The notes under the pieces: model-generated
Database searches by the model: none
Told to the model about the DNA's origin: nothing
What the model saw: the letters and a program-made list of their open reading frames with translations, nothing else
Translations under genes and position numbers: made by a program
NCBI GenBank assembly: GCA_014534155.1
Contig: JACVSB010000020.1
Span: 1-13,863 of the forward strand
Length of the DNA: 13,863 nucleotides
Origin: Thermoleophilia bacterium
GTDB lineage: Bacteria > Actinomycetota > Thermoleophilia > Gaiellales > Gaiellaceae
Reading direction: 5' to 3'
Part shown: positions 1 through 13,426 of the stretch, in pieces
How the letters are laid out: each line of letters starts with the position of its first letter
Numbering within the stretch: position 1 is the first letter of the stretch

Positions 1-207
1 AGCGGGCAGGGCGGCGCACTCTTTCGCGTCGATCCTGCGGCCTCGGACGCCCTCGTCGCCGCCACGAACGCGCGGGTCATGGAGATGCGCGGCCGAGCGA
101 TGCCCGGGTGGCTGCGCGTGGACGCTGAGGATCTCCGCAGCGAGGGGGAGCTGGCCGCGTGGGTGGCGCGCGGGCGGGACTACGCGCGCTCGCTGCCCGC
201 GAAGTAG
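1..207 (+). CDS. TfoX N-terminal domain protein (3' end only)
   Basis: Only the last 68 residues are visible; the gene starts before the window. The frame opens at base 1 and ends with TAG at 205-207. The visible part has the pattern of the C-terminal half of a TfoX/Sxy N-terminal domain: a strand with FRVDP, an ATNARVMEMRGRAMPGWLRV segment (family feature: Met-rich MEMRGRPM followed by GW.RV), then a helix with ELAAWVARG and the usual ending DYARSLPAK. Stand-alone TfoX_N proteins of about 110 residues are common in actinobacteria, and their role is mostly unknown. They should not be equated with the full competence regulator Sxy. It is followed by a 240-base gap and a gene on the opposite strand, so it looks unrelated to the amine cluster. 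Confidence 0.85.
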   Translation, partial: SGQGGALFRVDPAASDALVAATNARVMEMRGRAMPGWLRVDAEDLRSEGELAAWVARGRDYARSLPAK

Positions 208-447
208 TCGAATCCCCTGTCGAAGTGCTTGCCCACCCTCACGGAGGAGCGCAGAGCGCTGCGCGAGCTCGACGAGCGGGAGGCGGTCCTGCTTTCGCAG
301 CGGCGTATTGCGCCGCGGCGACGACGACCAACGCGTCGACCGCGACCCGCACGACGAGGGTCCGGGCGAGGTCGGGAGCCCGCTCGGGCGCCCTGCGCCC
401 GCCGCGGGCCCTCCGACCGCGCACGAGCGCCGCGTACGCCGGTCTGC

Positions 448-762
448 CTACGCCGTCGGCGTCAGCTCGTCCACGTAGACGTTCCAGGCCCGCACGTCGT
501 CGAGGGCGAAGACGCCGTTCTCGAGGAACGGATCCCCGGTCACGAGCTCTCGTGCCTCGTCCTCGCCGACGTTCTCGAGCACGATCACCGAGCCTGAGGA
601 GTCAGCGAACGGCCCGCCCATGACCATGGTCCCGCGTGCGACGAGCTCGTCCACGAACGCCGCGTGCTCGTCCCAGCCGGGCTGCGCCTCGGGGGCCCCG
701 CCCGTCCAGGTCGGCCCGGCGCGAAAGCGGACGAGAACCCGGACGACTCGCGTGCGCCCCAC
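448..762 (-). CDS. YCII-related (YciI family) protein
   Basis: A 104-residue protein, the usual length for a single YCII domain. The family fold is a ferredoxin-like alpha+beta barrel, often dimeric, with a conserved His and Asp proposed as an active site. Here the first strand is RVVRVLVRF (residues 5-13). The helix WDEHAAFVDELVARG carries His33. A MGGPFADSSGSVIVLE segment and the GDPF motif with Asp77 follow, then the C-terminal strand AWNVYV. The start chosen is GTG at 762, because the domain begins almost at once. No strong ribosome-binding site is visible and no other start fits better. The substrate is unknown for this family. Stop is TAG at 450-448. The next gene on the same strand upstream is the secreted protein starting at 1252, about 100 bases away, so co-transcription is possible but not shown. 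Confidence 0.85.
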   Translation of the reverse strand: MGRTRVVRVLVRFRAGPTWTGGAPEAQPGWDEHAAFVDELVARGTMVMGGPFADSSGSVIVLENVGEDEARELVTGDPFLENGVFALDDVRAWNVYVDELTPTA

Positions 763-859
763 ACCGGGGGAAACGGGTCCGGTCCGACGGGCATTCCAGA
801 CCCCGGCAGGAGAGCGGCCGGAGCCGACGAGCGTGCGGCCGCGGCGTGCTGGACGCGCG

Positions 860-1252
860 CTAGCCGGCCTTGGCGTTGGGACAGTGGATCGTCGTCCCGC
901 CGGGCTCGGCGAGGATCACCGCCTTGCTCGAGCGGTAGGCGAGGAAGGCCGTGTCGTGGTGGCCGCCGCCGATCAGTTCGCAGCTTGCGTTCCGGTACAC
1001 GCTCCGCTCGGTCACCGGAGTCGTGTGGAAGATCGCCCGGCACGTGAACGGGCCGGACACGAGCCCCGTGATCGGCCACTCGATGTCGCATTCGGCGGGG
1101 TGGAAGTAGTTGCCGTACCAGACGACGCAGCCGATCCCGGCGGGCGGCTCGCACAGGAGCACGCCGCCAACGGCCTGCGCCCTCGCTGGAGGAGGCCCGG
1201 CGAGCGCGAGCACGGCGAGGGCTGCGATTGTCGCTCCCAGGAGCGCCCGCAC
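860..1252 (-). CDS. Small secreted protein with six cysteines, unknown function
   Basis: I do not recognise a family. From GTG at 1252 the product is 130 residues. It begins with a clear Sec signal peptide: Arg at residue 2, a hydrophobic run ATIAALAVLALAG, then PPPARAQA, with likely cleavage after an Ala-x-Ala (ARAQA). The mature part of about 105 residues has six cysteines (contexts LLCEP, IGCVV, AECDI, FTCRA, ASCEL, IHCPN), enough for three disulfides. It is otherwise rich in Gly and beta-prone residues, suggesting a small disulfide-stabilised extracellular beta domain. The start is uncertain. In-frame GTG codons at 1312 and 1300 would add a charged 16-20 residue N-region. I prefer 1252 because the signal peptide is then normal and AGAGGA-like bases lie about 11 upstream. 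Stop is TAG at 862-860. Confidence 0.65.
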   Translation of the reverse strand: MRALLGATIAALAVLALAGPPPARAQAVGGVLLCEPPAGIGCVVWYGNYFHPAECDIEWPITGLVSGPFTCRAIFHTTPVTERSVYRNASCELIGGGHHDTAFLAYRSSKAVILAEPGGTTIHCPNAKAG

Positions 1253-1365
1253 TGCGAAGACGTTCCTCTCGCTCTCCGCCGAGGCGCCGCTCTCCGTCAC
1301 TCCACGTTTCACGTGCCACGAGTCTAGTACCGTCTGCAACGTACGACAAGACCTATGCTGGCGGC
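1253..1365. promoter_or_regulatory. Divergent intergenic region with a candidate leaderless promoter for the GSAM-like gene
   Basis: This gap separates the secreted-protein gene (minus) from the aminotransferase (plus). On the plus strand TATGCT at 1354-1359 fits the -10 pattern TAnnnT. It lies so that transcription would begin at or next to the ATG at 1366, which would give a leaderless mRNA as is common in actinobacteria. I see no convincing -35 box. The octamer AGTCTAGT at 1321-1328 recurs in the other divergent gap at 4981-4988. Its complement contains TAGACT, a -10-like hexamer for the minus strand. If the minus-strand gene starts at GTG 1312, its mRNA could also be leaderless. All of this is motif reading only. 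Confidence 0.3.
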
Positions 1366-2535
1366 ATGGACACCGCGACCGCGCCGCTTGCCGGTCTCGC
1401 CGAGCGCGCCCGCCGCGTCCTCCCGGGCGGCAACACCCGCACGACCCTGTTCGTCCCTCCGCACCCGCCGTACGCCGAGCGGGGAGAGGGCTACGAGCTG
1501 GTCGACGCCGAGGGCCACCGGCTGGTCGACCTACACGGGAACTACACCGCTCTCGTGCACGGCCACGCGCATCCGGCGATCGTGGCCTGCGCGACCGAGG
1601 CTGTCCGCCGCGGGTCCGCATTCGGCCTGCCCACCGAGGCCGAGATCGCGCTCGCCGAGACGCTCGCCGAGCGGGTCGGAGTGGTCGAGCGGGTTCGCTT
1701 CACGAGCTCGGGGACTGAGGCTGTCATGATGGCGGTTCGTGCCGCCCGGGCCGCGACGGGCCGCGCGGCCCTCCTGCGCTTCCGCGGCTCGTACCACGGC
1801 ACGTACGACGCTGTCGTGGAAGAGCCCGCCGACGGCGTCCCGGCGAGCGTCCACGACGATGTCCTCTCGGTTCCGGCCGGCGACGAGGCGGCATTCCTCG
1901 CCGCGCTCGAGGGGCGCGGAGGGGAGCTCGCCTGCGTCCTGCTCGACCTCATGCCGCACCGCGACGGCCTCCGCGAGGTTTCCCCCGGCTTCGCGCGGCT
2001 TGTCCGCGAGGAGACGGCGAAGCGGGGCATCGTGCTCGTCGTCGACGAGGTGGTCACGTTCCGGCTCGCCGCCGGAGGCCTCCAGGAGGACTACGGGATC
2101 GGGGCAGACCTCGTGGCCTTCGGGAAGGTGATCGGCGGCGGGTTCCCGGTCGGCGCCTTCGGCGGGCGGGCCGAGATCATGGACCTGTTCGACCCGTCGC
2201 GCGACGGCGCCGTCCCTCACGGCGGGACGTTCTCGGCAAACCCCGTCTCGATGCGCGCGGGCCAGGCCGCGCTCGAGCTCCTCGACGAGGACGAGATCGC
2301 CCGCATCGCGGGCCTCGGCGAGCGCCTGCGCGGGAACCTCGCCGATCTCGGGCTGGAGGTCCGCGGGCGGGGCTCGCTCCTCTACCTCGACGGGCTCGCC
2401 GGGGCGCCCGAGCGCTGGTGGCGCCTGTACGAGGCCGGGCTCCTCGTCACGCCGAGCGGCCTCGCCGCGGTCTCGACGCCGATGGACGAGGCCGCGATCG
2501 ACGAGGCCGCCGCGCGGGTCGAAGCCGCCCTCTGA
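1366..2535 (+). CDS. Class III aminotransferase, glutamate-1-semialdehyde aminomutase-like
   Basis: A 389-residue PLP enzyme of the fold-type I class III group, closest in pattern to the COG0001 (GSAM-like) branch. Seen motifs: N-terminal LPGGNTRTT (residues 19-27), typical of this branch; SSGTEA at 114-119 for the PLP phosphate; FRGSYHGTYD at 139-148; VVDEVV with Asp227 pairing with the pyridine nitrogen; and AFGKVIGGGFPVGAFGG with Lys254 as the Schiff-base lysine. The C-terminal domain is short but complete. Heme-pathway HemL proteins are usually about 430 residues, and no heme gene is nearby, so a role on a beta- or gamma-amino acid or amino-acid derivative is more likely. The start at ATG 1366 matches the family N-terminus; the frame is open further upstream but with no supporting signal. 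It ends 6 bases before the stop of the convergent BNR gene. It belongs to a different subfamily from the two aminotransferases at 5019 and 7160. Confidence 0.9.
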   Translation: MDTATAPLAGLAERARRVLPGGNTRTTLFVPPHPPYAERGEGYELVDAEGHRLVDLHGNYTALVHGHAHPAIVACATEAVRRGSAFGLPTEAEIALAETLAERVGVVERVRFTSSGTEAVMMAVRAARAATGRAALLRFRGSYHGTYDAVVEEPADGVPASVHDDVLSVPAGDEAAFLAALEGRGGELACVLLDLMPHRDGLREVSPGFARLVREETAKRGIVLVVDEVVTFRLAAGGLQEDYGIGADLVAFGKVIGGGFPVGAFGGRAEIMDLFDPSRDGAVPHGGTFSANPVSMRAGQAALELLDEDEIARIAGLGERLRGNLADLGLEVRGRGSLLYLDGLAGAPERWWRLYEAGLLVTPSGLAAVSTPMDEAAIDEAAARVEAAL

Positions 2536-2541
2536 CCCGCC

Positions 2542-3522
2542 TCAGGCGCCCGCGAAGGCGAGGGCACGCACGGCCGGGAGCGACGCGCCGCGTACCGGGC
2601 ACCGGCGCCAGCGCTCGCCCTGGTCACGGCTCTCCCAGACCTCGCCGTCCGAGAGGCCCGCGATCAGGCGCCCGTCCGCGGCGACGAGCGCGTAGGGCAT
2701 GCCGGGCAGGCGGTCGGGAAGCCCACCCGAGAGCGCCTGCCAGGGAGTAGCGCCGCGCCGGCGGTAGATGCGCGCCTGCGGGTCGCCGCCGCCGTGGGCG
2801 GCGTACGGCCCGGTGCTGGCGGAGACGTACCAGAGGTCCGCGTCCTCCGGATCAACCGCGACGGACCAGGTGTAGTGGCGGTCACGGCCCTCGTCGGCCG
2901 GGTGCCAGCTCTCCCCTGCGTCCTCGCTGTAGGCAGCGCCGCCGCCGCCCGCCTCGTAGGCGCGGCCGCGTGCGCGGGGGTGCCAGGCGAGCGAGTGCAC
3001 GTCAGGTTGCGCGCCCGGACGATGGTCCTGCCACGTCTCGCCGCCGTCCGACGTGCGCATGAGGCCTCCGAGCTCGATCCCGACGAGGAGGAGCCCCGCC
3101 TCGTGCGGACTCGGCGCGATCCAACGGACGTGCGAGGTCCACGGGCGGGGGGGAAACTTCCACGTGGGCCGGGAGGGAAGCGCGAGGAGGCCGTCGAGCG
3201 CGCGCCAGCCGGCACCGCCATCATCGCTTCGATAGAGCCGGCTCGGCTCCGTCCCCGCGTAGACCGCGCCGTCGCTCGGGCTCACCGCCAGCGAGAAGAC
3301 CTCAGGCTCCGGCAGCCCGCAGTCGCTCCAGATCCGGCCCCCGTCCTCGCTTCGCCGGACCCCTCCCCCGCGCAGCCCGGCATAGACCGTGTCGGGATCC
3401 CGGGGATCGACCGCAAGGCACTGCGCGCCGGTTCCGAGCAGGGAGAGCTCGAGAGACCACCCGTCGTCTGCCTCGTCGAGCCGCCCGATCCCGTCCCCAG
3501 TCGCCGCGTACAGGCGCGCCAT
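2542..3522 (-). CDS. BNR/sialidase-type beta-propeller repeat protein
   Basis: A 326-residue protein made almost wholly of BNR (Asp-box) repeats of the form S-x-D-x-G-x-x-W: SEDGGRIW (about residue 58), SDDGGAGW (about 99), SDGGETW (about 163), SEDAGESW (about 199) and SRDQGERW (about 304). Between them are strand pairs such as DTVYAGLRGGGVRRS and GAVYAGTEPSRLYRS. This is the pattern of 'WD40/YVTN/BNR-like' or VPS10-like propellers related to photosystem II assembly factor Ycf48. I see no signal peptide, membrane segment or sialidase catalytic Arg triad context, so enzyme activity is not supported; a binding or scaffold role is possible. The ATG at 3522 gives a natural propeller start (ARLYAATGDGIGRL). 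It lies 48 bases downstream of the aldehyde dehydrogenase stop on the same strand, so it may be the second gene of that transcript. No functional link to amine metabolism is evident. Confidence 0.85.
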   Translation of the reverse strand: MARLYAATGDGIGRLDEADDGWSLELSLLGTGAQCLAVDPRDPDTVYAGLRGGGVRRSEDGGRIWSDCGLPEPEVFSLAVSPSDGAVYAGTEPSRLYRSDDGGAGWRALDGLLALPSRPTWKFPPRPWTSHVRWIAPSPHEAGLLLVGIELGGLMRTSDGGETWQDHRPGAQPDVHSLAWHPRARGRAYEAGGGGAAYSEDAGESWHPADEGRDRHYTWSVAVDPEDADLWYVSASTGPYAAHGGGDPQARIYRRRGATPWQALSGGLPDRLPGMPYALVAADGRLIAGLSDGEVWESRDQGERWRRCPVRGASLPAVRALAFAGA

Positions 3523-3570
3523 CCCGCACAGCGTAGGTCTTCGCGCCCGCCGGCGCGGCGTTGTCGAGGC

Positions 3571-4944
3571 CTAGCCCGTAGCGATGAAGACGTTCTTGAG
3601 CTCGGTGTAGTAGTCGAGCGCGCGCGGGCCGAGCTCGCGGCCGACACCCGACTGCTTGAACCCGCCGAAGGGGGTGGAGACGCGGACGGACGTGTTCGAG
3701 TTGACCGAGAGCGTTCCGGTCTCGAGGCCGCGGGCGACCCGCAGCGCCTTCGCCCCGTCGCGCGTCCAGATCGACCCGGAGAGGCCGTAGATCGTCTCGT
3801 TCGCAAGCCGCACCGCCTCGTCCTCGCCGTCGAAGGGGATGACTGCGGCGACCGGGCCGAAGATCTCCTCCCGCGCCGCGCGGTCGTCGTTCGAGATCGG
3901 CGAGAGCACGGTCGGCGGGAACCAGAACCCCGGCCCATTCGGCGCAGGGCCGCGGAACGCGACGGGCGCGCCGTCCTCCACGTACGAGGCCACCTTCTCC
4001 CGCTGGGCCGCGGAGATGAGCGGCCCCATCTCCGTCTCGTCGGCGAGCGGGTCGCCGACCCGAAGGGCCGCGACCCCCGCTTCTAGGCGCTCCAGGAAGG
4101 CGTCGAGCGCAGGCCGCTCGACGAGGATGCGCGAGCGCGCGCAGCAGTCCTGCCCGGCGTTCCCGAACACGGCCGACGGGGCGGCAGCGGCCGCGCGCTC
4201 GAGATCGGCGTCGGCGAAGACGATGTTCGCGGACTTGCCGCCGAGCTCGAGCGTCACGCGCTTGATCGAGCGCGACGCGAGCTCGCCGATCCGGCGGCCG
4301 ACGGCCGTGGAGCCGGTGAAGGCGACCTTGGCCACGTCGGGATGCTCGACGATCCGCTCGCCGACGACGCGGCCCGGCCCGTTGACGACGTTCAGGACGC
4401 CCTCCGGGACACCCGCGTCCCGAGCGAGGCGCTCGAGCTCGAGCGCCGTCAGCGGGGTCAGCTCGGCGGGCTTGAGGACGACGGTGTTCCCGGCCGCGAG
4501 CGCCGGCGCGACCTTCCAGGAGGCGATGGCGAGCGGGAAGTTCCAGGGCGTGATGAGCCCGACGACACCGAGCGGCTCGCGAAAGGTCAGGTCGACGCCC
4601 CCCGCGACGGGGATCGTCTCGCCCAGCAGCCGCTCCGGCGCGCCCGAGTAGTACGTGAACGTGTCCGCGACCATGGCGACCTCGCCCCGGGCGTCCGAGA
4701 TCGGCTTGCCGACGTTGCGGGCCTCCAGCTGCGCAAGGTCCTCGGCGGCTGCCTCCACAGCCTCGGCGACGCGGCGAAGCAGGCGCGCGCGGTCCGCCGG
4801 CGCCACCGCGCGCCAGCCGGGGAACGCGTTCCGCGCGCGTTCGACCGCGGCATCAGCGTCCTCGACTCCCGCGCGCGGAAGCTCCGCGAGCACGTCTTCA
4901 GTCGCGGGCTCGAGGAGCTGCATCGTCTCGGTCGTCGCGCCCAT
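3571..4944 (-). CDS. NAD(P)+-dependent aldehyde dehydrogenase, probably acting on an aminoaldehyde
   Basis: A 457-residue member of the ALDH superfamily, slightly shorter than the usual 470-500 but complete. Oxidises an aldehyde to a carboxylate in the cytoplasm. Seen motifs: TPWNFPLAI (132-140) with oxyanion-hole Asn135; VVLKPAE with Lys158 for cofactor binding; FTGSTAVG (209-216) at the nucleotide fold; LELGGKSA with general-base Glu234; GNAGQDCCA with nucleophile Cys267; EEIFGP with Glu360; and TPFGGFKQSGVGRE near the C-terminus. The overall pattern resembles the betaine-aldehyde / gamma-aminobutyraldehyde / PuuC-like groups. Divergent from the aminotransferase operon at 5019 with a shared 74-base gap, it is the obvious candidate for oxidising aldehydes made by that operon. 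The start at ATG 4944 has AGGGGG eight bases upstream; Met8 is a weaker alternative. The exact substrate cannot be read from sequence alone. Confidence 0.92.
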   Translation of the reverse strand: MGATTETMQLLEPATEDVLAELPRAGVEDADAAVERARNAFPGWRAVAPADRARLLRRVAEAVEAAAEDLAQLEARNVGKPISDARGEVAMVADTFTYYSGAPERLLGETIPVAGGVDLTFREPLGVVGLITPWNFPLAIASWKVAPALAAGNTVVLKPAELTPLTALELERLARDAGVPEGVLNVVNGPGRVVGERIVEHPDVAKVAFTGSTAVGRRIGELASRSIKRVTLELGGKSANIVFADADLERAAAAAPSAVFGNAGQDCCARSRILVERPALDAFLERLEAGVAALRVGDPLADETEMGPLISAAQREKVASYVEDGAPVAFRGPAPNGPGFWFPPTVLSPISNDDRAAREEIFGPVAAVIPFDGEDEAVRLANETIYGLSGSIWTRDGAKALRVARGLETGTLSVNSNTSVRVSTPFGGFKQSGVGRELGPRALDYYTELKNVFIATG

Positions 4945-5018
4945 CCGCCTCGCCCCCTGGACCCCCTCGCTGATCGGGTTAGTCTAGTCCTTCGAGGTCG
5001 TTCCGTTCCCTATTTTCC
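4945..5018. promoter_or_regulatory. Shared divergent promoter region between aldehyde dehydrogenase and the aminotransferase operon
   Basis: The 74-base gap drives both arms of the putative amine cluster. The plus strand has TAGTCT (4980-4985), a TAnnnT -10 candidate giving a leader of about 27 bases, and a T-rich patch TATTTT (5011-5016), unusual in this GC-rich DNA but too close to the GTG at 5019 to be its own -10. The minus strand carries TAGACT (4987-4982) as a -10 candidate for the aldehyde dehydrogenase. Upstream of it on the same strand is the direct repeat GGAACGGAAC (5009-5000), whose GGAAC resembles an ECF sigma -35 element. The octamer AGTCTAGT (4981-4988) also occurs at 1321-1328. 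No regulator gene lies in the window. Confidence 0.35.
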
Positions 5019-6398
5019 GTGGAGGCGGCGCTGACGCAGGCCGGCATTTCGAGCAGCGAGACGAGGGTCTTCCCGCCGGAGCTCGACCGGCGCTACCCCG
5101 TCGCCGTGCGCGGGGAGGGGGTCTGGCTCGAGGACAAGGAGGGAAAACGGTACCTCGACGCCATGAGCGGCGGCTCGATGGCGGCGTCTCTCGGGTACGG
5201 ACGACGCGACCTAATCGCGGCGGCGCGCGAGCAGGCCCGGCGCGTCGCGTACGTGCACAACGAGTACCTGACGAGCGAAGCCCAGGAACGGCTCGCGCGT
5301 GAGCTCGTCGCCCTCGCGCCGGAAGGGTTCGCGCGCGCCTACTTCGTCACGGGAGGTGCCGAAGCGAACGAGGCGGCGCTCCGCCTCACGCGGGCCTACC
5401 ACGCGGAGCGCGGCGAGGCGGGCCGCTGGCGAATCATCTCCATGGCGCAGGCCTACCACGGCCCCACCGTCGGCACGCTGGCGCTGACGGGCCGTCCGGG
5501 CCTTCACGGACCCCTGGCGCCCTACTTCCCCAGCTTCCTGCATATCCCTCCGACGACGTCCCGCTTCGACCCGACCGGCGAGGCGGCGCTCGAGGCGCTC
5601 GACCGCATCCTCGCCCAGGTCGGGCCGGAGACGGTCTCGGCCTTCTTCTGCGAGCCGATCGGCGCCGCCGCGTTGCCGGCGCACCGCCCGCCCGACCGCT
5701 TCTGGGAGGGACTCGCCGCGCGAAGAGAGGAGCACGGCTTTCTCGTCTGCTTCGACGAGATCGTGACCGGCCTCGGCAGGACCGGGAACTGGTTCGCGGC
5801 GACCGACCTTCCGCTCGTCCCGGACGTGATCGCGACGGCGAAGGGCCTGGGTGCAGGCTACACGGCGATCGGCGCAGCCCTTTGCCGGGAGCACGTCTAC
5901 GAGGCGGTCGCGCAGGGCTCCGGCAGCTTCCCGCTCGGCCACACGTGGAGCGGAGCCCCGCTCTCCTGCGCCGTGGGCCTCGCCGTCCTCGACGCGCTCC
6001 GTCGCGAGGGGCTCGTCGAGCGCGTGCGCCAGCGCGGCCCCCGCTTGCGTGACGAGCTCGAGGACGCGCTCGGCGACGTCCCTTTCGTCCACGACGTACG
6101 CGGGCACGGGTTCCTGCTCGGCGTCGAGTACGCCGATCCGCGCGACGGCGCCTTCCTGCCCCCCGAGCTCGGCGTCGCGGGGAAGATCGACGAGACCGCC
6201 CTCGAGAGCGGGCTGATCCTCCTTTCCACCCAGCCGACGGGAGACGGCTACGCGGGCGACCAGACGCTCTTCGCGCCGGCCTTCACCGCGAGCGACGGGG
6301 AGCTTGCCGAGATGGTCGAGCGCTTCGCGGCGGCCGCACGCCGCGTTTGGGCGGCGGTCGAATCCCGTCTCCAGTCGGCACCCGTGGGGGCGCGGTGA
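5019..6398 (+). CDS. Class III aminotransferase A (first gene of the amine operon)
   Basis: A 459-residue PLP-dependent class III (omega-amino acid/diamine type) aminotransferase. Seen motifs: TGGAEANEAALRL (111-123) for the PLP phosphate; AYHGPTVGTLALTG (145-158) with the ring-stacking Tyr; FFCEPIGAAALP; FDEIVTGLGRTG (245-256) with Asp246; ATAKGLGAGY with Schiff-base Lys275; GHTWSGAPLSCAVGL; and the C-terminal RGHGFLLGVEYADPRDG. The start is GTG at 5019. It is the only in-frame start before the domain, since a stop codon lies at 4980 in this frame, and it has no clear Shine-Dalgarno sequence. Its stop overlaps the amidotransferase start by four bases. It is clearly paralogous to the aminotransferase at 7160: over residues about 205-375 well over half of positions match by eye. 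Likely role: transfers the free amino group of a diamine, gamma-glutamyl-diamine or omega-amino acid to a keto acid. The substrate is inferred from context. Confidence 0.9.
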   Translation: MEAALTQAGISSSETRVFPPELDRRYPVAVRGEGVWLEDKEGKRYLDAMSGGSMAASLGYGRRDLIAAAREQARRVAYVHNEYLTSEAQERLARELVALAPEGFARAYFVTGGAEANEAALRLTRAYHAERGEAGRWRIISMAQAYHGPTVGTLALTGRPGLHGPLAPYFPSFLHIPPTTSRFDPTGEAALEALDRILAQVGPETVSAFFCEPIGAAALPAHRPPDRFWEGLAARREEHGFLVCFDEIVTGLGRTGNWFAATDLPLVPDVIATAKGLGAGYTAIGAALCREHVYEAVAQGSGSFPLGHTWSGAPLSCAVGLAVLDALRREGLVERVRQRGPRLRDELEDALGDVPFVHDVRGHGFLLGVEYADPRDGAFLPPELGVAGKIDETALESGLILLSTQPTGDGYAGDQTLFAPAFTASDGELAEMVERFAAAARRVWAAVESRLQSAPVGAR

Positions 6399-7111
6399 GC
6401 GAGGCGCCGACGACGACCGGCGGGCGCTGGAGGGCGCTCGTCATCCAGCACGAAGCGCCGACGCCGCCCGGGCTGATCAAGCAGTGGCTGGAAGAGCGGG
6501 GCGCCGAGGTTGAGATCCTTCGCATCGACGAGCGCGATCCGCATGACATCGATCCCCGCGAGTACGCCCTCATCGTCTCGCTCGGCTCGGAGTTCGGGGC
6601 GTACCAGGACGACCTCGAGTGGATCTCGCACGAGATGGACTTGTTGAAGCAGGCCACGGAGAACGACGTCCCCATCCTCGGGGTCTGCTTCGGCGGTCAG
6701 CTCCTCGCCCGCGTCCTCGGCGGGCAGGTGTTCCGCTCGCCGAAGCAGGAGATCGGCTGGCTCCCCGTGGGCAGCACGGACACGGAGCTCGTCCCGGAGG
6801 GGCCGTGGTTCCAGTGGCACTTCGACACCTTCACGCCGCCGCCTGGAGCGCGCGTCGTGGCAGAGAACCAGGTCGGCCCGCAGGCCTACGTGATCGGACG
6901 AAGCCTGGGAGTCCAGTTCCACCCGGAGGTGACACCCGAGATCATGGAGAGCTGGGTCAAGGCGTACCGCCACGAGCTGGACGAGCACGGCGTCGATCCC
7001 GACCGGCTGCTCGAGCAGACGCTCGCGGCGAGCGAGACCACGCGCGCCACGAGCCTCGCGCTGCTCGACCGCTTCCTCGAACAGGTCGCCCGGCCGGCGA
7101 AACCGGCGTGA
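6395..7111 (+). CDS. Class I glutamine amidotransferase (GMP-synthase-like GATase1)
   Basis: A 238-residue stand-alone class I amidotransferase domain. The triad is intact: nucleophile Cys98 in VPILGVCFGGQ, and His176 and Glu178 in GVQFHPEVT. The oxyanion strand motif LIVSLGSEFGAY lies at 59-70. The elbow GVCFGG is that of the GMP-synthase-like branch (cd01741 type); PuuD-type gamma-glutamyl-GABA hydrolases have GICRG-like elbows of the peptidase C26 family. No synthetase partner domain is fused. In context with a GS-like ligase the better guess is hydrolysis of a gamma-glutamyl amide to release glutamate, as AtdA2 does beside the ligase AtdA1 in aniline degradation. Supplying ammonia to a partner is the alternative. 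The start is GTG at 6395, overlapping the previous TGA (GTGA), so translation is probably coupled. The C-terminal 50 residues form a helical extension beyond the core domain. Confidence 0.88.
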   Translation: MSEAPTTTGGRWRALVIQHEAPTPPGLIKQWLEERGAEVEILRIDERDPHDIDPREYALIVSLGSEFGAYQDDLEWISHEMDLLKQATENDVPILGVCFGGQLLARVLGGQVFRSPKQEIGWLPVGSTDTELVPEGPWFQWHFDTFTPPPGARVVAENQVGPQAYVIGRSLGVQFHPEVTPEIMESWVKAYRHELDEHGVDPDRLLEQTLAASETTRATSLALLDRFLEQVARPAKPA

Positions 7112-7159
7112 CCGAAAGGCGCCGGATGCGGACGTCGCGTCGTCCATCGCGAGGATGCA

Positions 7160-8509
7160 GTGAGAGCTGACGTGGCAGCGCCCGGGTCGAGCGTCCTTCC
7201 CCGGCAGGGGAAGGTGAGGCCGCTGCTCGTCGAGCGCGCCGAGGGCGTCTGGCTCTACACCGGGGAGGGGCGGGAGATCCTCGACGCCTGCGGCGGGGGC
7301 GCGATGGTCGCGTGCCTCGGCCACGGACGGGGCGAGATCGTCGAAGCCGCGGCTGCGCAGGCCGAGCGACTCGCCTACGTCTACTACCACCACTTCACGA
7401 ACGAGCTCCAGGAGCGCCTGGCCGAGCGGATCCTCGCCCTCGCGGCGCCGGAGATGGCGCGCGCGCGCTTCGTCACGGGTGGATCGGAGGCCAACGAGCT
7501 CGCCCTCCGGCTGGCTCGGCAGTACCACGTCGAGCGGGGAGCAAGCGGTCGCTGGCGCGTCGTCTCGCCCGGGCAGGCCTACCACGGCGCCACGCTCGGC
7601 GCGCTCGCCTTGACCGGCCGACGCACGCTGCAGGAGCCGTACACCCCGTACCTCGCGGATCACCTGCACCTGGCTCCCAGCACGTGGCGCTTCGACGAGT
7701 CCGGCGAGCGGGCGCTCGCGGAGCTCGACCGGCTGGTCGCGGAAGCGGGAGCCGACACGATCGCGGCCTTCTTCTGCGAGCCGGTGAGCGCCGCCGCCCT
7801 CCCCGGGTACTCGCCCCCGGACGCGTTCTGGCACGGCCTCGCGGAGCGCCGCGAGCGCTACGGGTTCCTCATCTGCTTCGACGAGGTCGTGACAGGGTTC
7901 GGCCGCACGGGCTCCTGGTTTGCGTACCAGCAGCTCCCGCTCGAGCCGGACATCGTCACCTTCGGCAAGGGGCTGGGGGCGGGCTACGCCCCGCTCGCGG
8001 GGATGCTCGCTCGCGAGGAGGTGTACGAGCCGATCGCGGGCGGCTCGAAGAACTTCGAGCACGGTCACACCTGGGACGGAGCGCCGCTCCTCTGCGCGGT
8101 GGGGCTGCGAGTCCTCGACGAGCTGGTCGAGCACGGCCTCGTCGAGCACGTGGCCGAGCGCGGCCCGCGCCTTCGCGACGAGCTCGCTTCCGCGCTCGCG
8201 GGCCGGCGCCTCGTCCGGAGCGTGCGCGGCCGCGGGTTCCTGCTCGGCGTCGAGCTCGTCGACCCGCGCGACGGCGAATCGCTCCTGCCCGACGAGCTGG
8301 ACGCGGCCGCGCTCGTCGACCGCACCGCGCTCGCGAACGGCCTCCTCGTCGCCTCGTCCCATTCAGTCGCCGACGGGTACACGGGCGACGAGACGCTCCT
8401 GGCGCCGGCGTTCACGAGCACCGACGAGGAGCTCGCGCTCGTGGTCGAGCGACTCGCGGACACGCTCGCCGAGGTCGAGCGCGAGGTCGTGAGAGCTCTC
8501 GCCGCGTGA
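7160..8509 (+). CDS. Class III aminotransferase B (paralogue of A)
   Basis: A 449-residue PLP-dependent class III aminotransferase. Seen motifs: VTGGSEANELALRL (105-118); AYHGATLGALALTG (140-153); FFCEPVSAAALP; CFDEVVTGFGRTG (239-251) with Asp241; TFGKGLGAGYAPLAG with Schiff-base Lys270; GHTWDGAPLLCAVGL; and VRGRGFLLGVELVDPRDG. It shares block order and most motif wording with the aminotransferase at 5019, so the pair arose by duplication. The differences (Gly-Lys against Ala-Lys at the PLP lysine; GFGRTG against GLGRTG; GMLAREE against AALCREH) suggest different substrates or amino acceptors. The start is GTG at 7160 with GAGGA four bases upstream; GTG at 7172 is a possible alternative. It lies 48 bases after the amidotransferase stop and overlaps the GS-like gene start by four bases (GTGA), again implying coupling. 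Confidence 0.9.
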   Translation: MRADVAAPGSSVLPRQGKVRPLLVERAEGVWLYTGEGREILDACGGGAMVACLGHGRGEIVEAAAAQAERLAYVYYHHFTNELQERLAERILALAAPEMARARFVTGGSEANELALRLARQYHVERGASGRWRVVSPGQAYHGATLGALALTGRRTLQEPYTPYLADHLHLAPSTWRFDESGERALAELDRLVAEAGADTIAAFFCEPVSAAALPGYSPPDAFWHGLAERRERYGFLICFDEVVTGFGRTGSWFAYQQLPLEPDIVTFGKGLGAGYAPLAGMLAREEVYEPIAGGSKNFEHGHTWDGAPLLCAVGLRVLDELVEHGLVEHVAERGPRLRDELASALAGRRLVRSVRGRGFLLGVELVDPRDGESLLPDELDAAALVDRTALANGLLVASSHSVADGYTGDETLLAPAFTSTDEELALVVERLADTLAEVEREVVRALAA

Positions 8510-9837
8510 GCGGGGTCGAAGTCTCGGATGTGCCCGCGGCCGGCGAGAAGGCCGCGGAGCAGGCACGAGAGTACGTCCTCCTCGGCATGCCGGACCTGAA
8601 CGGGTCGCTCCGCGGCAAGGCGCTCAGCCGCGACGCGTTCGAAGGGGCGGTTCGCGACGGGGCGGTCATGACCGACCTCCTCCTTGCCCTCGACCCGGTC
8701 GACGCGCCGATCACAGACTACGAGGACCTCGGCGTCCGCTCCGGCGCCGGCGATCTCGTCGTCCACCCCGACCTCGACACTTTGCACGAGCTCGCCTGGC
8801 GGCCGGGATGGAGCATCTGCATCGGCACGCCGAGCTGGCGCGACGGCACCGCCTGCGAGCTCTCGACGCGCGAGGTGCTGCGGCGCGCACTCGCCGCGAT
8901 GGCCGAGCTCGGGTACGAGGTGCTGGCGGCGTTCGAGTACGAGCTCCGCCTCTGGGATGCGCAAGGCTCGCCGCTCTCGAGCGGCATCAGCTACAGCCTG
9001 GTCGAGATCCCCCGCTACCACGAGTTCGTCGGGCGGCTCGGCCCAGCGCTCGCCGGCCTGGGCGTCGAGCTCTCCGCGGTCCACACCGAGGCGGGTCCAG
9101 GCCTCCTGGAGCTCAACCTCGCCGCGCGGCGCGGCCTGCGCGCCGCCGACGAGGCCGCCTTCGTCAAGCTGGCGGCCAAGGAGGTGGCAGCCTCCCTCGG
9201 CCTGCGCGCCAGCTTCCTGGCGAAGACGGCTCCCGGCGAGGAGGGCTCGAGCGGGCATGTCCATGTCTCCTGCTGGAGCGACGGCGAGAACGCGTTCGCC
9301 GGCGGCGGAGGCCGCGCGGCATCACGCGCGTGCGAGCGGGCGGTGGCGGGGATCCTGGAGCACCTCTCCGCAGCCTCGCTCCTCCTCAATCCGACCATCA
9401 ACTCGTACAAGCGTCTCCTGCCGGGCTGGTTCGCGCCCGTGAACGCAAGCTGGGGCGTCGAGAACCGCTCCGCCGCGCTCCGCGTCATCCGCTCGGCGCG
9501 GCCGGAGCGCTGCCGGATCGAGTGTCGGCGCCCGGGCGCCGACGCGAACCCCTACCTCGCCCTCGCGAGCCTGGTGGCGACGGCGGCGGACGGGATGCGG
9601 AAGGACGCGACGCCGCCTCCGCCCGTGGAGGGCGATGCCTACTCGCGCCCCGACCTTCCGGAGCTCCCCGGGTCGCTCGAGGCGGCGCTGCGCGCCTTCC
9701 GCGCCGACGAGGTGCTGCAGCGCGAGCTCGGCGAGCGGTTCGCGAGCTACTACACCACCTCGCGCGAGTGGGAGCTCCGAGCGTGGCGGGAGAGCGTGAG
9801 CGAGTGGGAGCGCGAGCGCTACGAGCGCGCGGTCTAG
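8506..9837 (+). CDS. Glutamine-synthetase-like ligase, probably gamma-glutamyl-amine synthetase
   Basis: A 443-residue GS-I-fold enzyme. The N-terminal beta-grasp has the D-x-N-G-x-x-R-G-K signature (MPDLNGSLRGK, residues 28-38). Catalytic-domain motifs: FEYEL with metal ligands Glu144 and Glu146; HTEAGPGLLEL with Glu195 and Glu202; SGHVHVS with His251; NPTINSYKRLLPG (295-307); WGVENRSAALRV; and RIECRRPGADANPYLALAS with Glu339. The NSYKRL and PGADANPYLALAS wording is that of the PuuA/GlnA3/GlnA4 group rather than the ammonia-assimilating enzyme, and the adenylylation motif NLYDLP is absent. Reaction expected: glutamate + amine + ATP to gamma-glutamyl amide. The start at GTG 8506 overlaps the previous TGA; the frame is open far upstream, but that stretch codes for the aminotransferase in another frame. 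The amine cannot be named: putrescine, other diamines, ethanolamine or a monoalkyl amine are all possible. Confidence 0.87.
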   Translation: MSGVEVSDVPAAGEKAAEQAREYVLLGMPDLNGSLRGKALSRDAFEGAVRDGAVMTDLLLALDPVDAPITDYEDLGVRSGAGDLVVHPDLDTLHELAWRPGWSICIGTPSWRDGTACELSTREVLRRALAAMAELGYEVLAAFEYELRLWDAQGSPLSSGISYSLVEIPRYHEFVGRLGPALAGLGVELSAVHTEAGPGLLELNLAARRGLRAADEAAFVKLAAKEVAASLGLRASFLAKTAPGEEGSSGHVHVSCWSDGENAFAGGGGRAASRACERAVAGILEHLSAASLLLNPTINSYKRLLPGWFAPVNASWGVENRSAALRVIRSARPERCRIECRRPGADANPYLALASLVATAADGMRKDATPPPPVEGDAYSRPDLPELPGSLEAALRAFRADEVLQRELGERFASYYTTSREWELRAWRESVSEWERERYERAV

Positions 9838-9867
9838 GCGCGCACTGCCGGCCCGGCCCCGCCCGCG

Positions 9868-11205
9868 CTAGTACAGCTCCAGGTACTCCTCACGCTCCCA
9901 GTCGGTCACGTGGTCGCCGAACCGCTGCAGCTCGTGGCGTCGCATGACCGAGTACGCCTGCACGAACTCGGAGCCGAGGAGCTCGACGAGCTTCTCGTCC
10001 TCCTCCAGGAGCCGGAGCGACTCCTCGACCGTCTCGGGGAGCTTGGGCTTCGACTCGTCCTCCTCGGCGGGCGGCCGAGCAGCGGGCTCGAGCTCGAGCT
10101 CGTCCGCGACGCCGAGGATGCCCGCACCGAGCAGCGCGGCCGAGGCGAGGTAGGGGTTCGAGAGCCCGGTGGGAGCACGGTTCTCGACGTGCCTCGTCGC
10201 GGCACTCCCGCCCTTGATTCGAACGAGCGCGCTCCGGTCCTCCGGGCCCCAGGAGACGTTCGTCGGGCTGAAGGTGTGCGTGCGGCGCCGTTTCAGGCAG
10301 TTCACGGTGGGGGCGAGGAGCGCGTAGGTCGAGCGAGCGTGCCGGAGCTGGCCGGCGACGAACGCACGGCCGACCGGACTCAGGCCGTCCTCGCCGCTCT
10401 CGTCGGCGATTGCGTTCTCGCCGCCGTCGAGGTCGAGCAGCGCCATGTGGTTGTGGGCGCCGCAGCCTGCCGAGTCCGCGAACGGCTTCGACATGAAGGT
10501 GGCCAGGAAGCCCTCCACGTGGGCTAGCTCCTTGACGCCGTTCTTGAACGTGAAGGTCTGGTCGGGGCCGTCGAGGCCGCGGGCGGGCTCGTACGTGATC
10601 TCCCACTGCGAACCGGCGTACTCGCAGTTCGCCGTGACGACGTCGATGCCGAACTCCTTCATCTCGTCCACGATGCGTTGGATCAGCGGAACCCAGGCGT
10701 TCCGGACCGTGTTGAAGATGTGGTAGCCGCCGAAGAGCCGCTGGCGCGTCTCGCGCTCGAGCACGTAGAACTCCGGCTCGATCCCGATCAGCGGCTCGTA
10801 CCCGAGCTCGCGGCAGCGTTCCAGCACGCGGCCGAACACGTGGCGAGGCGCCGCGCCCAGCGGGCGGCCGTCGTCCCAGAAGGTGTCGCAGATCATGCGG
10901 CCGGTCGCCTCCGCCCAGGGAACGACTCGCGCCGTCCCCGGATCCGGCTTCAGGCGCTGGTCGGCGTAGCCGACCTCCTCGTTGTAGAGCGTCCCCGCGA
11001 CCACGTCGGAGCGCGTGTCGAGCACGACGGCGCCGCCGTACATGTTCAGCCCGCGCTCGGCGGTGCCCGCCGCGTGCTCGAGCGGGACCGTCTTCGAGCG
11101 GCTCGTTCCGTGCATGTCGGGCAGCTCGAAGCGGACGTAGCGGATCCCCGCCTCGGCCCAGTCGGCGAGAACCTGCTCGACCGTCGGCTTCTGCTCGCCC
11201 GGCAT
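9868..11205 (-). CDS. Glutamine synthetase family protein (second, different subfamily)
   Basis: A 445-residue GS-fold protein on the opposite strand, converging on the ligase at 8506 with a 30-base gap. Motifs: ELPDMHGTSRSK (27-38) in the beta-grasp; GIEPEFYVLE with Glu143 and Glu145; NCEYAGSQWEI with Glu195 and Glu202; GCGAHNHMALLD with His251; PTVNCLKRRRTHTFSPTNVSWGPEDRSALVRI (299-330) in pieces, with Arg324; and HVENRAPTGLSNPYLASAALLG with Glu341. All metal and core substrate positions look present, so it should be an active ligase. The adenylylation motif NLYDLP is replaced by an acidic ESKPKLPETVEES segment, arguing against GlnE-type control. It may make glutamine, recapturing nitrogen freed by the cluster, or may be a second gamma-glutamylamine synthetase for another amine. 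The start at ATG 11205 is chosen because the domain begins right after it; in-frame codons upstream look non-coding. No strong ribosome-binding site is seen. Confidence 0.88.
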   Translation of the reverse strand: MPGEQKPTVEQVLADWAEAGIRYVRFELPDMHGTSRSKTVPLEHAAGTAERGLNMYGGAVVLDTRSDVVAGTLYNEEVGYADQRLKPDPGTARVVPWAEATGRMICDTFWDDGRPLGAAPRHVFGRVLERCRELGYEPLIGIEPEFYVLERETRQRLFGGYHIFNTVRNAWVPLIQRIVDEMKEFGIDVVTANCEYAGSQWEITYEPARGLDGPDQTFTFKNGVKELAHVEGFLATFMSKPFADSAGCGAHNHMALLDLDGGENAIADESGEDGLSPVGRAFVAGQLRHARSTYALLAPTVNCLKRRRTHTFSPTNVSWGPEDRSALVRIKGGSAATRHVENRAPTGLSNPYLASAALLGAGILGVADELELEPAARPPAEEDESKPKLPETVEESLRLLEEDEKLVELLGSEFVQAYSVMRRHELQRFGDHVTDWEREEYLELY

Positions 11206-11260
11206 GCCGGCGGACGATAATCGAGCGTTCGCGTCACCTGCCAGCCGGTACGCTTCGCCG

Positions 11261-11437
11261 GTGAACGCGGGAGTCTTCCCCCTCGTCGTTCTCGCCGCCG
11301 TCGTCATCACGATCACGGTCGCGTGGCCCGAGTTCTGGGCGACGAACGATCGCGAGCTGCCCTTCGACGCCGAGGACGAGACCCGGGGCGACTGGCAGCA
11401 GATCCCCCACCAGGGTCACCCGCCGGATACCGGCTGA
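11261..11437 (+). CDS. Possible small single-pass membrane protein
   Basis: A 58-residue reading frame from GTG 11261 to TGA at 11435-11437. It has one strong hydrophobic segment (VFPLVVLAAVVITITVAW, about residues 5-22) followed by an acidic, hydrophilic tail (PFDAEDETRGDW and a His/Pro-rich end). This looks like a single-pass anchor with a soluble C-tail. It sits between the divergent GS gene and the permease and points in the permease direction, 93 bases upstream of it. Support is composition only: no recognisable family and no clear ribosome-binding site. An ATG at 11204 in the same frame would overlap the divergent GS start codon (CATG) and adds a low-complexity leader, so I prefer 11261. 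It could be a small permease accessory subunit, or a chance frame. Confidence 0.45.
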   Translation: MNAGVFPLVVLAAVVITITVAWPEFWATNDRELPFDAEDETRGDWQQIPHQGHPPDTG

Positions 11438-11530
11438 GAACCCGCCGCCTCCCGGCGCCTCGCTTGCGGCGTCCGATGTCACCGTGCGATGATTTTCCCT
11501 GCGTCGTCGTCGGTGAAGGGAGGATGATCG
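11438..11530 (+). promoter_or_regulatory. Leader of the permease gene with a strong ribosome-binding site
   Basis: AAGGGAGG at 11516-11523 is the best Shine-Dalgarno match in the window, seven bases before the ATG at 11531. It decides the start over the out-of-frame ATG at 11524. A weak promoter candidate is TTGCGG (11464-11469) with GATGAT (11488-11493) at 18-base spacing. The promoter part is tentative; the ribosome-binding site is firm. Confidence 0.5.
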
Positions 11531-13366
11531 ATGGCAGCGAACGCTGACAGCGAGGGCGTCTTCATCCGCCGCTCCTCGGGCCTCACGCGTCAGGTAAGCG
11601 GCCGGGACGCGCTCGCGTACTGCGCGATGAACCCGGGGCTGCTCTACGCGTTCGTGTACGCGATGTTCATCATCCCGCTCTTCGCGGCGTACGGCGGCGC
11701 GTATCTACCGCTCGGGGTCCTGCCCGTCCTCATGATGTTCCCGATCGCGGGGCTCTACTGGTACTACTCGGTCACGATGCCGCGCTCCGGCGGCGAGTAC
11801 GTCTACATCAGCCGGACGCTGCACCCGGCGCTCGGCCTCTTTGCGAACTGGATGATCTCGATCACCGCGATCTCGTGGCTCGGGCTCCTGACCGATTGGT
11901 GGCTGAAGTGGTCCGTGGCCGACAGCTTCATCGCCCACGGGATCCGCTCCGGCAACGAGGGGTTGGTCAACGTCGGCACGTGGTTCGAGGGCGAATGGGT
12001 GCGAACGCTCATCGGCACGGCGGCCATGCTCCTGACGATCTGGATCTTCCTCAAGGGCGCGCGGATGATGATGCGCCTCGCCTACGTCGCGATCGGCGCG
12101 AGCTGGCTCGCGATCCTCATCCTCGCGATCGCCGTCCTCGCCACTTCCCAGTCCGAGTTCGTCGGCGCGCTGCGAAACCTCACCGGGATCGACGCCTCCG
12201 CCGTGATCGGCTACGGCCGCGAGGCGGACGTGCTTGCGTTCACCTTTCTCGCCACGCTCCTCGGAGGCGCGACGTACGTGGTCCTGAACACCCTCGGCGC
12301 CACGTTCTCGGCGAACATCGCCGGCGAGATCCGGGGCGTCTCGCGCTCGCAGGCGCTCGCGCTCTTCGGAGCGCTCGTGATCCAGATGATCACCTGGGGC
12401 GTGGCGTACACGCTCGTCTACGCGACCGCAGGAGCGAACTTCTGGCACGGCGTGACGATGAGCTGGTTCGACGGTGCCGACACGTATCCGCTTGCTCACC
12501 ACACGAACGGCCAGGTGGAAGCGGCGCTCGGCGCCGGCCTGGGAACCGCGCGCGAGCCGTTCCCGACCCTCCTCCTGGCGTTCACGAGCGGTGGAACCGT
12601 CCTCATCTACCTCTTCGCGCTCTGCTTCGCCGTCTCCACCTTCATCTCGGCGGCCGGCCTCGCCTTCGCCCCGATCCGGAACGTCTTCGCCTGGTCGTTC
12701 GACCGCCTCATCCCGACGAAGTTCGCCCAGCTCGACCGGCGCTACCGCGCTCCCTGGCTCGCCATCGTGGCCGTCGTCTTCGTGGGCTGGCTTTTCCTCG
12801 TGATCGACATCTGGCGGCCGGGCTGGACGGCGCAGATCGCCTTCACGATCACCGGGTGGTTCGTCGGCTGGATCGTTCTCGGGATTGCGGGGATGGTCTT
12901 CCCGCTCGTCCGTCCGGCGCTCTACCGGGCTGCCCCGCCCGCCGTGCAGCGCGGTGTCCCAGCGCTCGCCGCCGTCGTCTTCGCCGCCGCCGTGACCATC
13001 GTCGCGGCCGTCCTCGCGATCGCCGCGACGGAGTCGCGGACCTGGGGCGAGGTGACGACGATCGTCGGGATCGGTGCGATGGGGACGCTTGCGTTCTGGC
13101 TCATCGGCCAGAGGCTCGACGGGACGGTCCCGTTCGTCTCGCTCCTCGGGTGGGCGACGCTCGCGGTCAGCGCGTTCATCGAGTGGTCGATCCTGCGGCC
13201 CTTCTTCTCGATCGGGGGGGAGGATCCCGCGCTCTCCTGGGACGCGATGCGCCCGATCCCCTTCATGATGGCGGCACCGATCCTGATCTACATCGTCGCG
13301 GTCGTCATCGCCCGCCAGCGCGAGATCCCGCTCTCGGCCCAGTTCGGCGAGGTGCCGCCGGAGTAG
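11531..13366 (+). CDS. APC-superfamily amino acid/polyamine permease (long form)
   Basis: A 611-residue integral membrane transporter. The APC signatures are clear: MPRSGGEYVYISRTLHP (83-99) ahead of the third segment and ANIAGEIRGVSRS (261-273) after the sixth. By eye the hydrophobic segments lie near 30-54, 58-80, 97-120, 158-175, 183-205, 233-256, 274-298, 347-380, 409-426, 435-460, 478-500, 507-525, 534-553 and 577-594. That is about 14, against 10-12 in usual 450-500 residue members. A long extracytoplasmic loop (about 300-345) is also unusual. The N-terminus is cytoplasmic and hydrophilic. It is likely to import an amino acid, amine or polyamine by proton or sodium symport. Position next to the GS genes and aminotransferases suggests it supplies the cluster's substrate, as PuuP does in Puu clusters; this is inference. 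The start at ATG 11531 is set by the strong AAGGGAGG site. Confidence 0.9.
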   Translation: MAANADSEGVFIRRSSGLTRQVSGRDALAYCAMNPGLLYAFVYAMFIIPLFAAYGGAYLPLGVLPVLMMFPIAGLYWYYSVTMPRSGGEYVYISRTLHPALGLFANWMISITAISWLGLLTDWWLKWSVADSFIAHGIRSGNEGLVNVGTWFEGEWVRTLIGTAAMLLTIWIFLKGARMMMRLAYVAIGASWLAILILAIAVLATSQSEFVGALRNLTGIDASAVIGYGREADVLAFTFLATLLGGATYVVLNTLGATFSANIAGEIRGVSRSQALALFGALVIQMITWGVAYTLVYATAGANFWHGVTMSWFDGADTYPLAHHTNGQVEAALGAGLGTAREPFPTLLLAFTSGGTVLIYLFALCFAVSTFISAAGLAFAPIRNVFAWSFDRLIPTKFAQLDRRYRAPWLAIVAVVFVGWLFLVIDIWRPGWTAQIAFTITGWFVGWIVLGIAGMVFPLVRPALYRAAPPAVQRGVPALAAVVFAAAVTIVAAVLAIAATESRTWGEVTTIVGIGAMGTLAFWLIGQRLDGTVPFVSLLGWATLAVSAFIEWSILRPFFSIGGEDPALSWDAMRPIPFMMAAPILIYIVAVVIARQREIPLSAQFGEVPPE

Positions 13367-13426
13367 GGGTCGGGAAGAGGCCGTCGGGCTGCGCGCCCCG
13401 CTCGGTCACCCTCCCCTCGAGGCTCC

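Follow-up and report, generated by a model that had tools for sequence, protein, structure and literature searches.

A conserved gene cluster with paired class III aminotransferases and no oxidase gene as a candidate Spu-like gamma-glutamylation pathway in Thermoleophilia

Introduction

Can a gene cluster that encodes no oxidase serve the degradation of amines through gamma-glutamyl intermediates, and which enzyme would then take the oxidase's place? This question is raised by a 13,863-nucleotide stretch of a Thermoleophilia bacterium genome (GCA_014534155.1, contig JACVSB010000020.1, positions 1 to 13,863; hereafter the window). Here, a gene for an aldehyde dehydrogenase (ALDH) is divergent from genes for a class III aminotransferase (ATA), a class I glutamine-amidotransferase-like protein (GAT), a second class III aminotransferase (ATB), and a glutamine synthetase (GS)-like predicted amine ligase (GS1), with a permease gene (PF13520) close by. 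An initial annotation made from the letters of the DNA had placed and named these genes in the same way, and it omitted a second GS-like predicted ligase gene (GS2) and a GSA-type aminotransferase gene (Table 1).

With moderate confidence, we favour the explanation that the locus encodes a Spu-like, oxidase-free gamma-glutamylation pathway that breaks down a primary amine, the likeliest being a di- or polyamine. In this predicted pathway, GS1 and GS2 would ligate glutamate onto one amino group of the amine, and one of the paired aminotransferases would turn the amino group left free into an aldehyde by transferring its nitrogen to a keto acid, without release of H2O2 or ammonia. The divergent ALDH would oxidise the resulting aldehyde, and the glutamate would be removed by GAT or, in some relatives, by a PuuD-type protein. 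The second aminotransferase would have another substrate with an amino group, which could be the omega-amino acid released in the pathway or the diamine without a glutamate tag. The substrate, the order of these steps, the assignment of ATA and ATB to them, and the direction in which GAT would work are those that we infer.

Conservation of the gene cluster

Genome searches with GS1 yielded 19 genomes encoding a GS1 with 63% identity or more, the line used for counting the ATA-GAT-ATB-GS1 block, which was chosen after the next GS1 relative (G338, 61-62%) proved to be without the aminotransferase pair. The block is present in 15 of these genomes, and the remaining four (G332, G563, G679, and G708) are cut by contig ends. 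It was counted across two contigs in G004, and the ATB of G726 and the GS1 of G717 were read in two frames. Among the 15 block-bearing genomes, a GS2 orthologue (at least 59% identity) is found in 13 and an ALDH (51-80% identity) in nine, and a Peptidase C26 (PuuD-type) gene adjoins GS1 in six (G002, G004, G041, G160, G178, and G512); in G477, such a gene lies 5.7 kb away. Judging by these counts, the four-gene block and the two ligases form the constant part of the cluster, with the ALDH and the hydrolase being variable, and since the gene arrangement recurs in many genomes, it is not due to chance.

The absence of a flavin adenine dinucleotide (FAD) oxidase from the locus, already noted in the initial annotation, was corroborated in two ways: a Pfam scan of 10 window proteins revealed no FAD oxidase domain, and a PuuB-family profile comprising E. 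coli PuuB plus 34 homologues (threshold E ≤ 1e-4) matched none of the window's open reading frames of at least 60 amino acids. The same profile gave no match in 23 related loci with a total of 316,604 bases (20 from those 19 genomes and one each from G338, G280, and G117), and it did match the PuuB-like and further DAO genes that served as positive controls. The ligase, aminotransferase, and amidotransferase set, whose conservation the initial annotation had suggested looking for, is kept in the genomes with no oxidase in the loci. An earlier scan of the loci with 64 queries had returned a sole apparent oxidase match, in L131, which was rejected as a dehydrogenase E1 component (E1_dh) by Pfam.

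The spread of the cluster is patchy. GS1 relatives at E ≤ 1e-100 occur in 8 of 399 genomes of the class, G338, G280, and G117 among them without the block, and ATA at E ≤ 1e-150 was detected in 6 of 232 genomes of one order, including a lone aminotransferase in G142. ATA relatives are present in 2 of 31 genomes of one family, and GS1 at E ≤ 1e-75 in 15 of 396 genomes of a phylum sample. A search of genome contigs with the GAT alignment gave at least 80 loci; L001, L002, and L003 contain the block, and L043 contains the end of GAT together with ATB, GS1, and GS2. The nearest proteins of the aminotransferase are approximately 80% identical, two of them, among the matches listed, being named Gaiellaceae. 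Distant GS1 relatives in G117 (47%) and G338 (61%) also cluster with genes for ALDH, PuuD, and a class III aminotransferase.

The aminotransferase pair

ATA and ATB are paralogous, as had been proposed from their sequences, and share 56% identity. In a maximum likelihood tree of 50 sequences, the rooting of which depends on long outside branches, 21 ATA-type rows form one group (100/99) and 18 ATB-type rows another (99/97), and neither ATA nor ATB groups with E. coli GabT or PuuE (4 of 44 aminotransferase rows had been removed beforehand as overlapping duplicates). The separation of the two types in the tree argues for a single old duplication before the cluster spread.

This old duplication is accompanied by fixed differences. 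Across the window and 13 genomes, a comparison that omits the partial aminotransferases of G726 and G669, every ATA carries the patch H-x-E and every ATB the patch Y-x-H, in a region that we take to line the substrate pocket of class III transaminases. The A/B column counts leave aside four outsiders labelled by best hit (L181, L190, L075, and L184). Database neighbours follow the same pattern, with H in all 119 ATA neighbours and E in 114 of them (D in 5), and with both Y and H in 120 of 120 ATB-type proteins. The lysine binding pyridoxal phosphate (PLP) is kept in 119 of 119 ATA and in 119 of 120 ATB-type proteins. ATA is the more conserved of the two, with a mean pairwise identity of 72% vs. 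67% for ATB and the higher value in 88 of 91 comparisons. Both proteins look like active enzymes, and their distinct fixed patches fit two substrates.

Among solved structures, amine and polyamine transaminases are better matches to the pair than PuuE is. In single-sequence searches, ATA and ATB scored higher with 6io1, 6gwi, 6hx9, and 9j4z than with the PuuE chains, the E-values being 1e-55 to 1e-61 for 6gwi (named putrescine aminotransferase), 6hx9, and 9j4z (named polyamine:pyruvate transaminase), and 3e-44 to 3e-46 for PuuE. With a profile of ATA relatives, the same four structures reached 4e-120 to 5e-131, and the PuuE chains fell outside the 53 sequences with E ≤ 1e-90. The initial suggestion that one aminotransferase replaces the oxidase gains from these better scores with amine and polyamine transaminases, and it is tempered by PuuB-family oxidases encoded elsewhere in the genomes (see below). 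A more specific version, in which ATA and ATB would form an obligate two-transaminase relay performing consecutive deaminations that start with the gamma-glutamyl-amine and continue with the amino acid once it is released, is tentative and in our judgement unlikely; if true, all amine nitrogen would be kept in amino acids, and neither H2O2 nor free ammonia would form.

A deviating ATB was found in G602 (L201, 3148-4656, minus strand), where the frame is open, the PLP lysine is replaced by serine, and the YHG motif is altered; the ATA of this cluster is intact. Given this ATB without a PLP lysine, a hetero-oligomer of ATA and ATB may be conceivable. The idea that a dead ATB generally forms part of a heteromer was rejected, as only 1 of the 120 ATB-type proteins nearest to the G602 ATB is without the lysine, and that one is G602's own.

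The predicted ligases

Eight GS1 and five GS2 sequences were aligned with E. coli GlnA and PuuA (E. coli numbering), the roles of the aligned positions being presumed. Ten positions for metal, ATP, and glutamate (Glu, His, or Arg) are kept in all eight GS1 and five GS2 sequences. Glu327, in the flap of the ammonium site, is replaced by Phe in 13 of 13, Tyr179 by Ser, Gly, or His, and Ser53 by Leu, Val, or Ala in all but one; in both window ligases, all three residues are replaced. Furthermore, Arg355 is changed to His in the GS2 set and in one GS1. Asp50 of the ammonium site is Gly in GS2, being lost in the window GS2 and kept in the window GS1. These replacements fit ligases whose amine substrate would not be ammonia, the fit being clearer in GS2 than in GS1.

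Neither protein is a close match to PuuA, with which each shares 29% identity (30% between GS1 and GS2). The GGputSyn model, the PuuA equivalog, gave 217 bits for GS1 and 231 bits for GS2, below its cut-off of 650. The closest solved relatives of GS2 are several glutamine synthetases.

Counter-evidence and alternative explanations

Several observations weigh against a Spu-like, oxidase-free pathway, partly by themselves and partly through the support that they lend to the alternatives considered below. The matches of the ATA profile include chains named as 4-aminobutyrate (GABA) transaminases (5kr6, 3e-118; POP2, 3e-100), and among E. coli proteins only, PatA, GabT, and PuuE score alike for the aminotransferases. 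Neither the tree, in which both stand apart from GabT and PuuE, nor the E. coli scores mark ATA or ATB as the GABA enzyme, which weakens the initial proposal that the other aminotransferase handles the released amino acid. The fixed A/B differences are compatible with two substrates. An ALDH was not found in 6 of the 15 block loci, and the relatives' genomes are draft assemblies. In G338, next below the 63% line, there is no aminotransferase pair beside GS1: the 1.5 kb left upstream of GS1 contain no aminotransferase, and a single class III aminotransferase lies farther off. In addition, Asp50 is kept in 7 of 8 GS1 sequences, and part of a published account of SpuI-SpuC-KauB-PauD2 in B. methanolicus states that no 5-aminovalerate was produced (PMC8274714).

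GAT is a further point of this kind. A role as the glutamyl hydrolase, implied in the initial annotation, would agree with its family and with a presumed catalytic triad (Cys, His, and Glu) that does not vary between the window protein and 13 aligned relatives. By comparison of the sequences, GAT is not of the PuuD type: it has no BLAST match to PuuD, and the top structure matches of the two proteins are different sets. Its role is uncertain because 6 of the 15 relatives carry a separate PuuD-type hydrolase gene beside GS1.

These separate hydrolase genes would fit the best surviving alternative, which we regard as possible but unlikely, that ATA and ATB serve a parallel route. They would act directly as transaminases on a free diamine (PatA/SpuC-like) and on the omega-amino acid derived from it (GabT-like), and the ligases and GAT would process a different monoamine or buffer a toxic amine as its gamma-glutamyl conjugate, with GAT as the reverse hydrolase. 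SpuC also acts on free putrescine, as stated in passages of PMC10606097, and the GAT-like AtdA2 is described, in a section of PMC11335346, as hydrolysing a gamma-glutamyl amine back to the amine. However, ATA, GAT, ATB, and GS1 are tightly interleaved and co-conserved wherever the contig extends, and in the window the gene pairs ATA/GAT and ATB/GS1 each share 4 nt (GTGA), as in what appears to be a coupled operon. The overlaps and the co-conserved interleaved block argue for one pathway.

That a PuuB-family FAD oxidase acting in trans oxidises the gamma-glutamyl-amine, and that the aminotransferases serve only released omega-amino acids, is in our view quite improbable. The absence of the oxidase is a property of the locus and not of the genome: the PuuB-like gene that the initial annotation had envisaged as a counter-argument is missing from the 23 loci, but homologues of E. 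coli PuuB with 27-37% identity are encoded elsewhere in 9 of 11 and 9 of 10 genomes, corresponding to 16 of 18 searched cluster genomes. PF01266 proteins were detected in 11 of 11 genomes and PF01593 proteins in 13 of 14. In G002, genes for a GS, a DAO-type oxidase, and a Peptidase C26 protein are adjacent to each other and away from the cluster (L141 2164-6016, C364), and in G004 an Amino_oxidase (PF01593) gene lies beside another GS-like gene, likewise away from the cluster (G004:C432:28111-30615). Because of these gene pairs, oxidase-based routes with other ligases may coexist in the same cells. Against an oxidase serving this cluster stands that TIGR03329 is the top-scoring model for all 15 scanned PuuB-like proteins (14 cluster genomes), with no score above its cut-off, whereas the best model of E. 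coli PuuB is pipecolate oxidase; since no PuuB-specific model was seen even for PuuB, these scores neither show nor exclude PuuB function and are still compatible with it. Moreover, no GS gene was found within the 8.5-19 kb fetched around 10 PuuB-like genes (7 genomes), and the DAO of G002 is weakly PuuB-like (50 bits with the PuuB-family profile) and nearest to the sarcosine oxidase model. In G717 and G332, both fragmented drafts, no PuuB homologue was matched.

The closest solved relative of GS1 is 5dm3, presumably an ethanolamine-pathway ligase. In the G280 locus (L135), a GS1 relative (49%) is found with genes for PuuD, an iron-dependent alcohol dehydrogenase (Fe-ADH), ALDH, a flavin mononucleotide (FMN) oxidoreductase, and a second GS, a combination that appears close to an ethanolamine-type gene set. 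A pathway for an amino alcohol or other monoamine (ethanolamine type, GlnA4-like) instead of a diamine would suit this best GS1 match and the Fe-ADH, ALDH, and PuuD neighbours in G280, as ligase, Fe-ADH, and ALDH are part of the ethanolamine gene set in a table of PMC9397018, but we consider it very improbable, with no Fe-ADH (PF00465) among the window proteins scanned with Pfam and two aminotransferases in its place that would be needless for an alcohol.

Other features of the window and neighbouring genes

The genes of the window are listed in Table 1. Among the matches listed, which number 25 or fewer for each protein, none of the window proteins reached a curated NCBIfam cut-off. The nearest NCBIfam model of the ALDH is aminobutyraldehyde dehydrogenase (NF010000), with a score under the cut-off, and the nearest models of the GSA-type aminotransferase are those of glutamate-1-semialdehyde aminomutase, with scores far under the cut-offs.

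Table 1. Genes of the 13,863-nucleotide window
Gene	Positions	Strand	Remarks
YciI-like gene			leftmost in the window, before the GSA-type aminotransferase
GSA-type class III aminotransferase	1366-2535	+	third class III aminotransferase of the window
BNR-type (BNR-repeat) propeller gene	2542-3522	-	adjoins the GSA-type aminotransferase gene
ALDH	3571-4944	-	divergent from the ATA operon, 74 bp apart
ATA, class III aminotransferase A	5019-6398	+	PLP Lys275, patch H80-x-E82
GAT, class I glutamine-amidotransferase-like protein	about 6395-7111	+	
ATB, class III aminotransferase B	7160-8509	+	PLP Lys270, patch Y75-x-H77
GS1, GS-like predicted amine ligase	8506-9837	+	
GS2, second GS-like predicted amine ligase	9868-11316	-	convergent with GS1
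APC-type permease, 611 aa	11531-13366	+	PF13520, 37.6 bits vs. cut-off 27

Some relatives carry additional genes. Permease relatives of 46-47% identity are found near GS2 in G001, G572, and G477, and these three genomes also have a PucR-type GAF regulator beside the cluster. A third GS-like gene together with an Amidohydro_2 gene lies beside the cluster in G003 (L138 11743-14433) and G512 (L195 2292-4961). In the latter genome, the PuuD-type Peptidase C26 domain is fused with a GrpB domain in one frame directly after GS1 (L195 11147-12469).

Relationship to known amine pathways

In Pseudomonas Spu systems, spuB encodes a second ligase. Passages of one study of P. aeruginosa state that SpuC catalyses the deamination of both putrescine and gamma-glutamylputrescine, with pauB genes also being involved, and that spuABCDEFGH is under a promoter between spuI and spuA (PMC10606097). 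SpuI-SpuC-KauB-PauD2 is described as a pathway in part of PMC8274714, and a section of PMC11879879 refers to spuB once as an oxidase and once as the first gamma-glutamylation enzyme. Puu, Pau, Spu, and ethanolamine genes are tabulated in PMC9397018, and putrescine use in SAR11 is assigned to plain transamination in a part of PMC8437039.

The window shares a GS-like ligase, an amidotransferase-class protein (a glutamyl hydrolase in Spu), and a class III aminotransferase with Spu of Pseudomonas (spuI/spuABC; in P. putida puuA-I, spuA, and spuC-I; KauB and PauD), as far as the latter is described in sections of PMC10606097, PMC8274714, and PMC11879879. The Spu aminotransferase is a class III amine:pyruvate enzyme, and those of the window score best with amine:pyruvate-type structures. 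The window differs from Spu in having two aminotransferases from one old duplication, a GAT without a BLAST match to PuuD, and an APC-type permease instead of the SpuDEFGH polyamine ABC transporter (Pfam showed no ABC-transporter domain in the 10 window proteins scanned). The ALDH gene in the cluster is no difference from P. putida, the spu1 cluster of which is said to contain one in a portion of the published descriptions.

Other systems are less similar. The E. coli Puu pathway (PuuA-PuuB-PuuC-PuuD-PuuE) has the ligase, ALDH, amidotransferase-class protein, aminotransferase, and permease classes in common with the window, the locus of which, however, encodes no PuuB and has ligases and a GAT distant from PuuA and PuuD, respectively, as well as aminotransferases apart from PuuE. 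The GlnA4 ethanolamine gamma-glutamylation of Streptomyces and Chromohalobacter shares the GS-like ligase and ALDH (the G280 relative also the Fe-ADH), whereas the window has aminotransferases and no PF00465 alcohol dehydrogenase. The aniline and 1-naphthylamine systems (AtdA1A2 and NpaA1A2) share a GS-like ligase paired with a GAT-like protein, but a Pfam scan of 10 window proteins gave no Rieske dioxygenase domain.

Since Pseudomonas SpuC is reported to deaminate gamma-glutamylputrescine, oxidase-free gamma-glutamylation is not a new principle. The initial annotation saw a merger of the gamma-glutamyl and SpuC-like routes in a single cluster; the conserved block without an oxidase supports this view, although Spu clusters already hold ligase, hydrolase, and aminotransferase. 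On the available sequence comparisons, the cluster seems best called a Spu-like variant, and what is new is probably a Spu-like route in which the transaminase is a retained pair of old origin. In the titles and abstract openings of the literature searched, mostly non-subscription papers, no account of this actinobacterial cluster was found. If our explanation is correct, the oxidase-free route of the Pseudomonas SpuC type would also exist as a conserved cluster in Thermoleophilia-type soil Actinomycetota. The cluster would then offer a clean system to test a transaminase on a glutamyl-tagged amine, an activity that the consulted portions of the literature state or assume and do not dissect, and it would give these bacteria a peroxide-free, nitrogen-saving use of amines.

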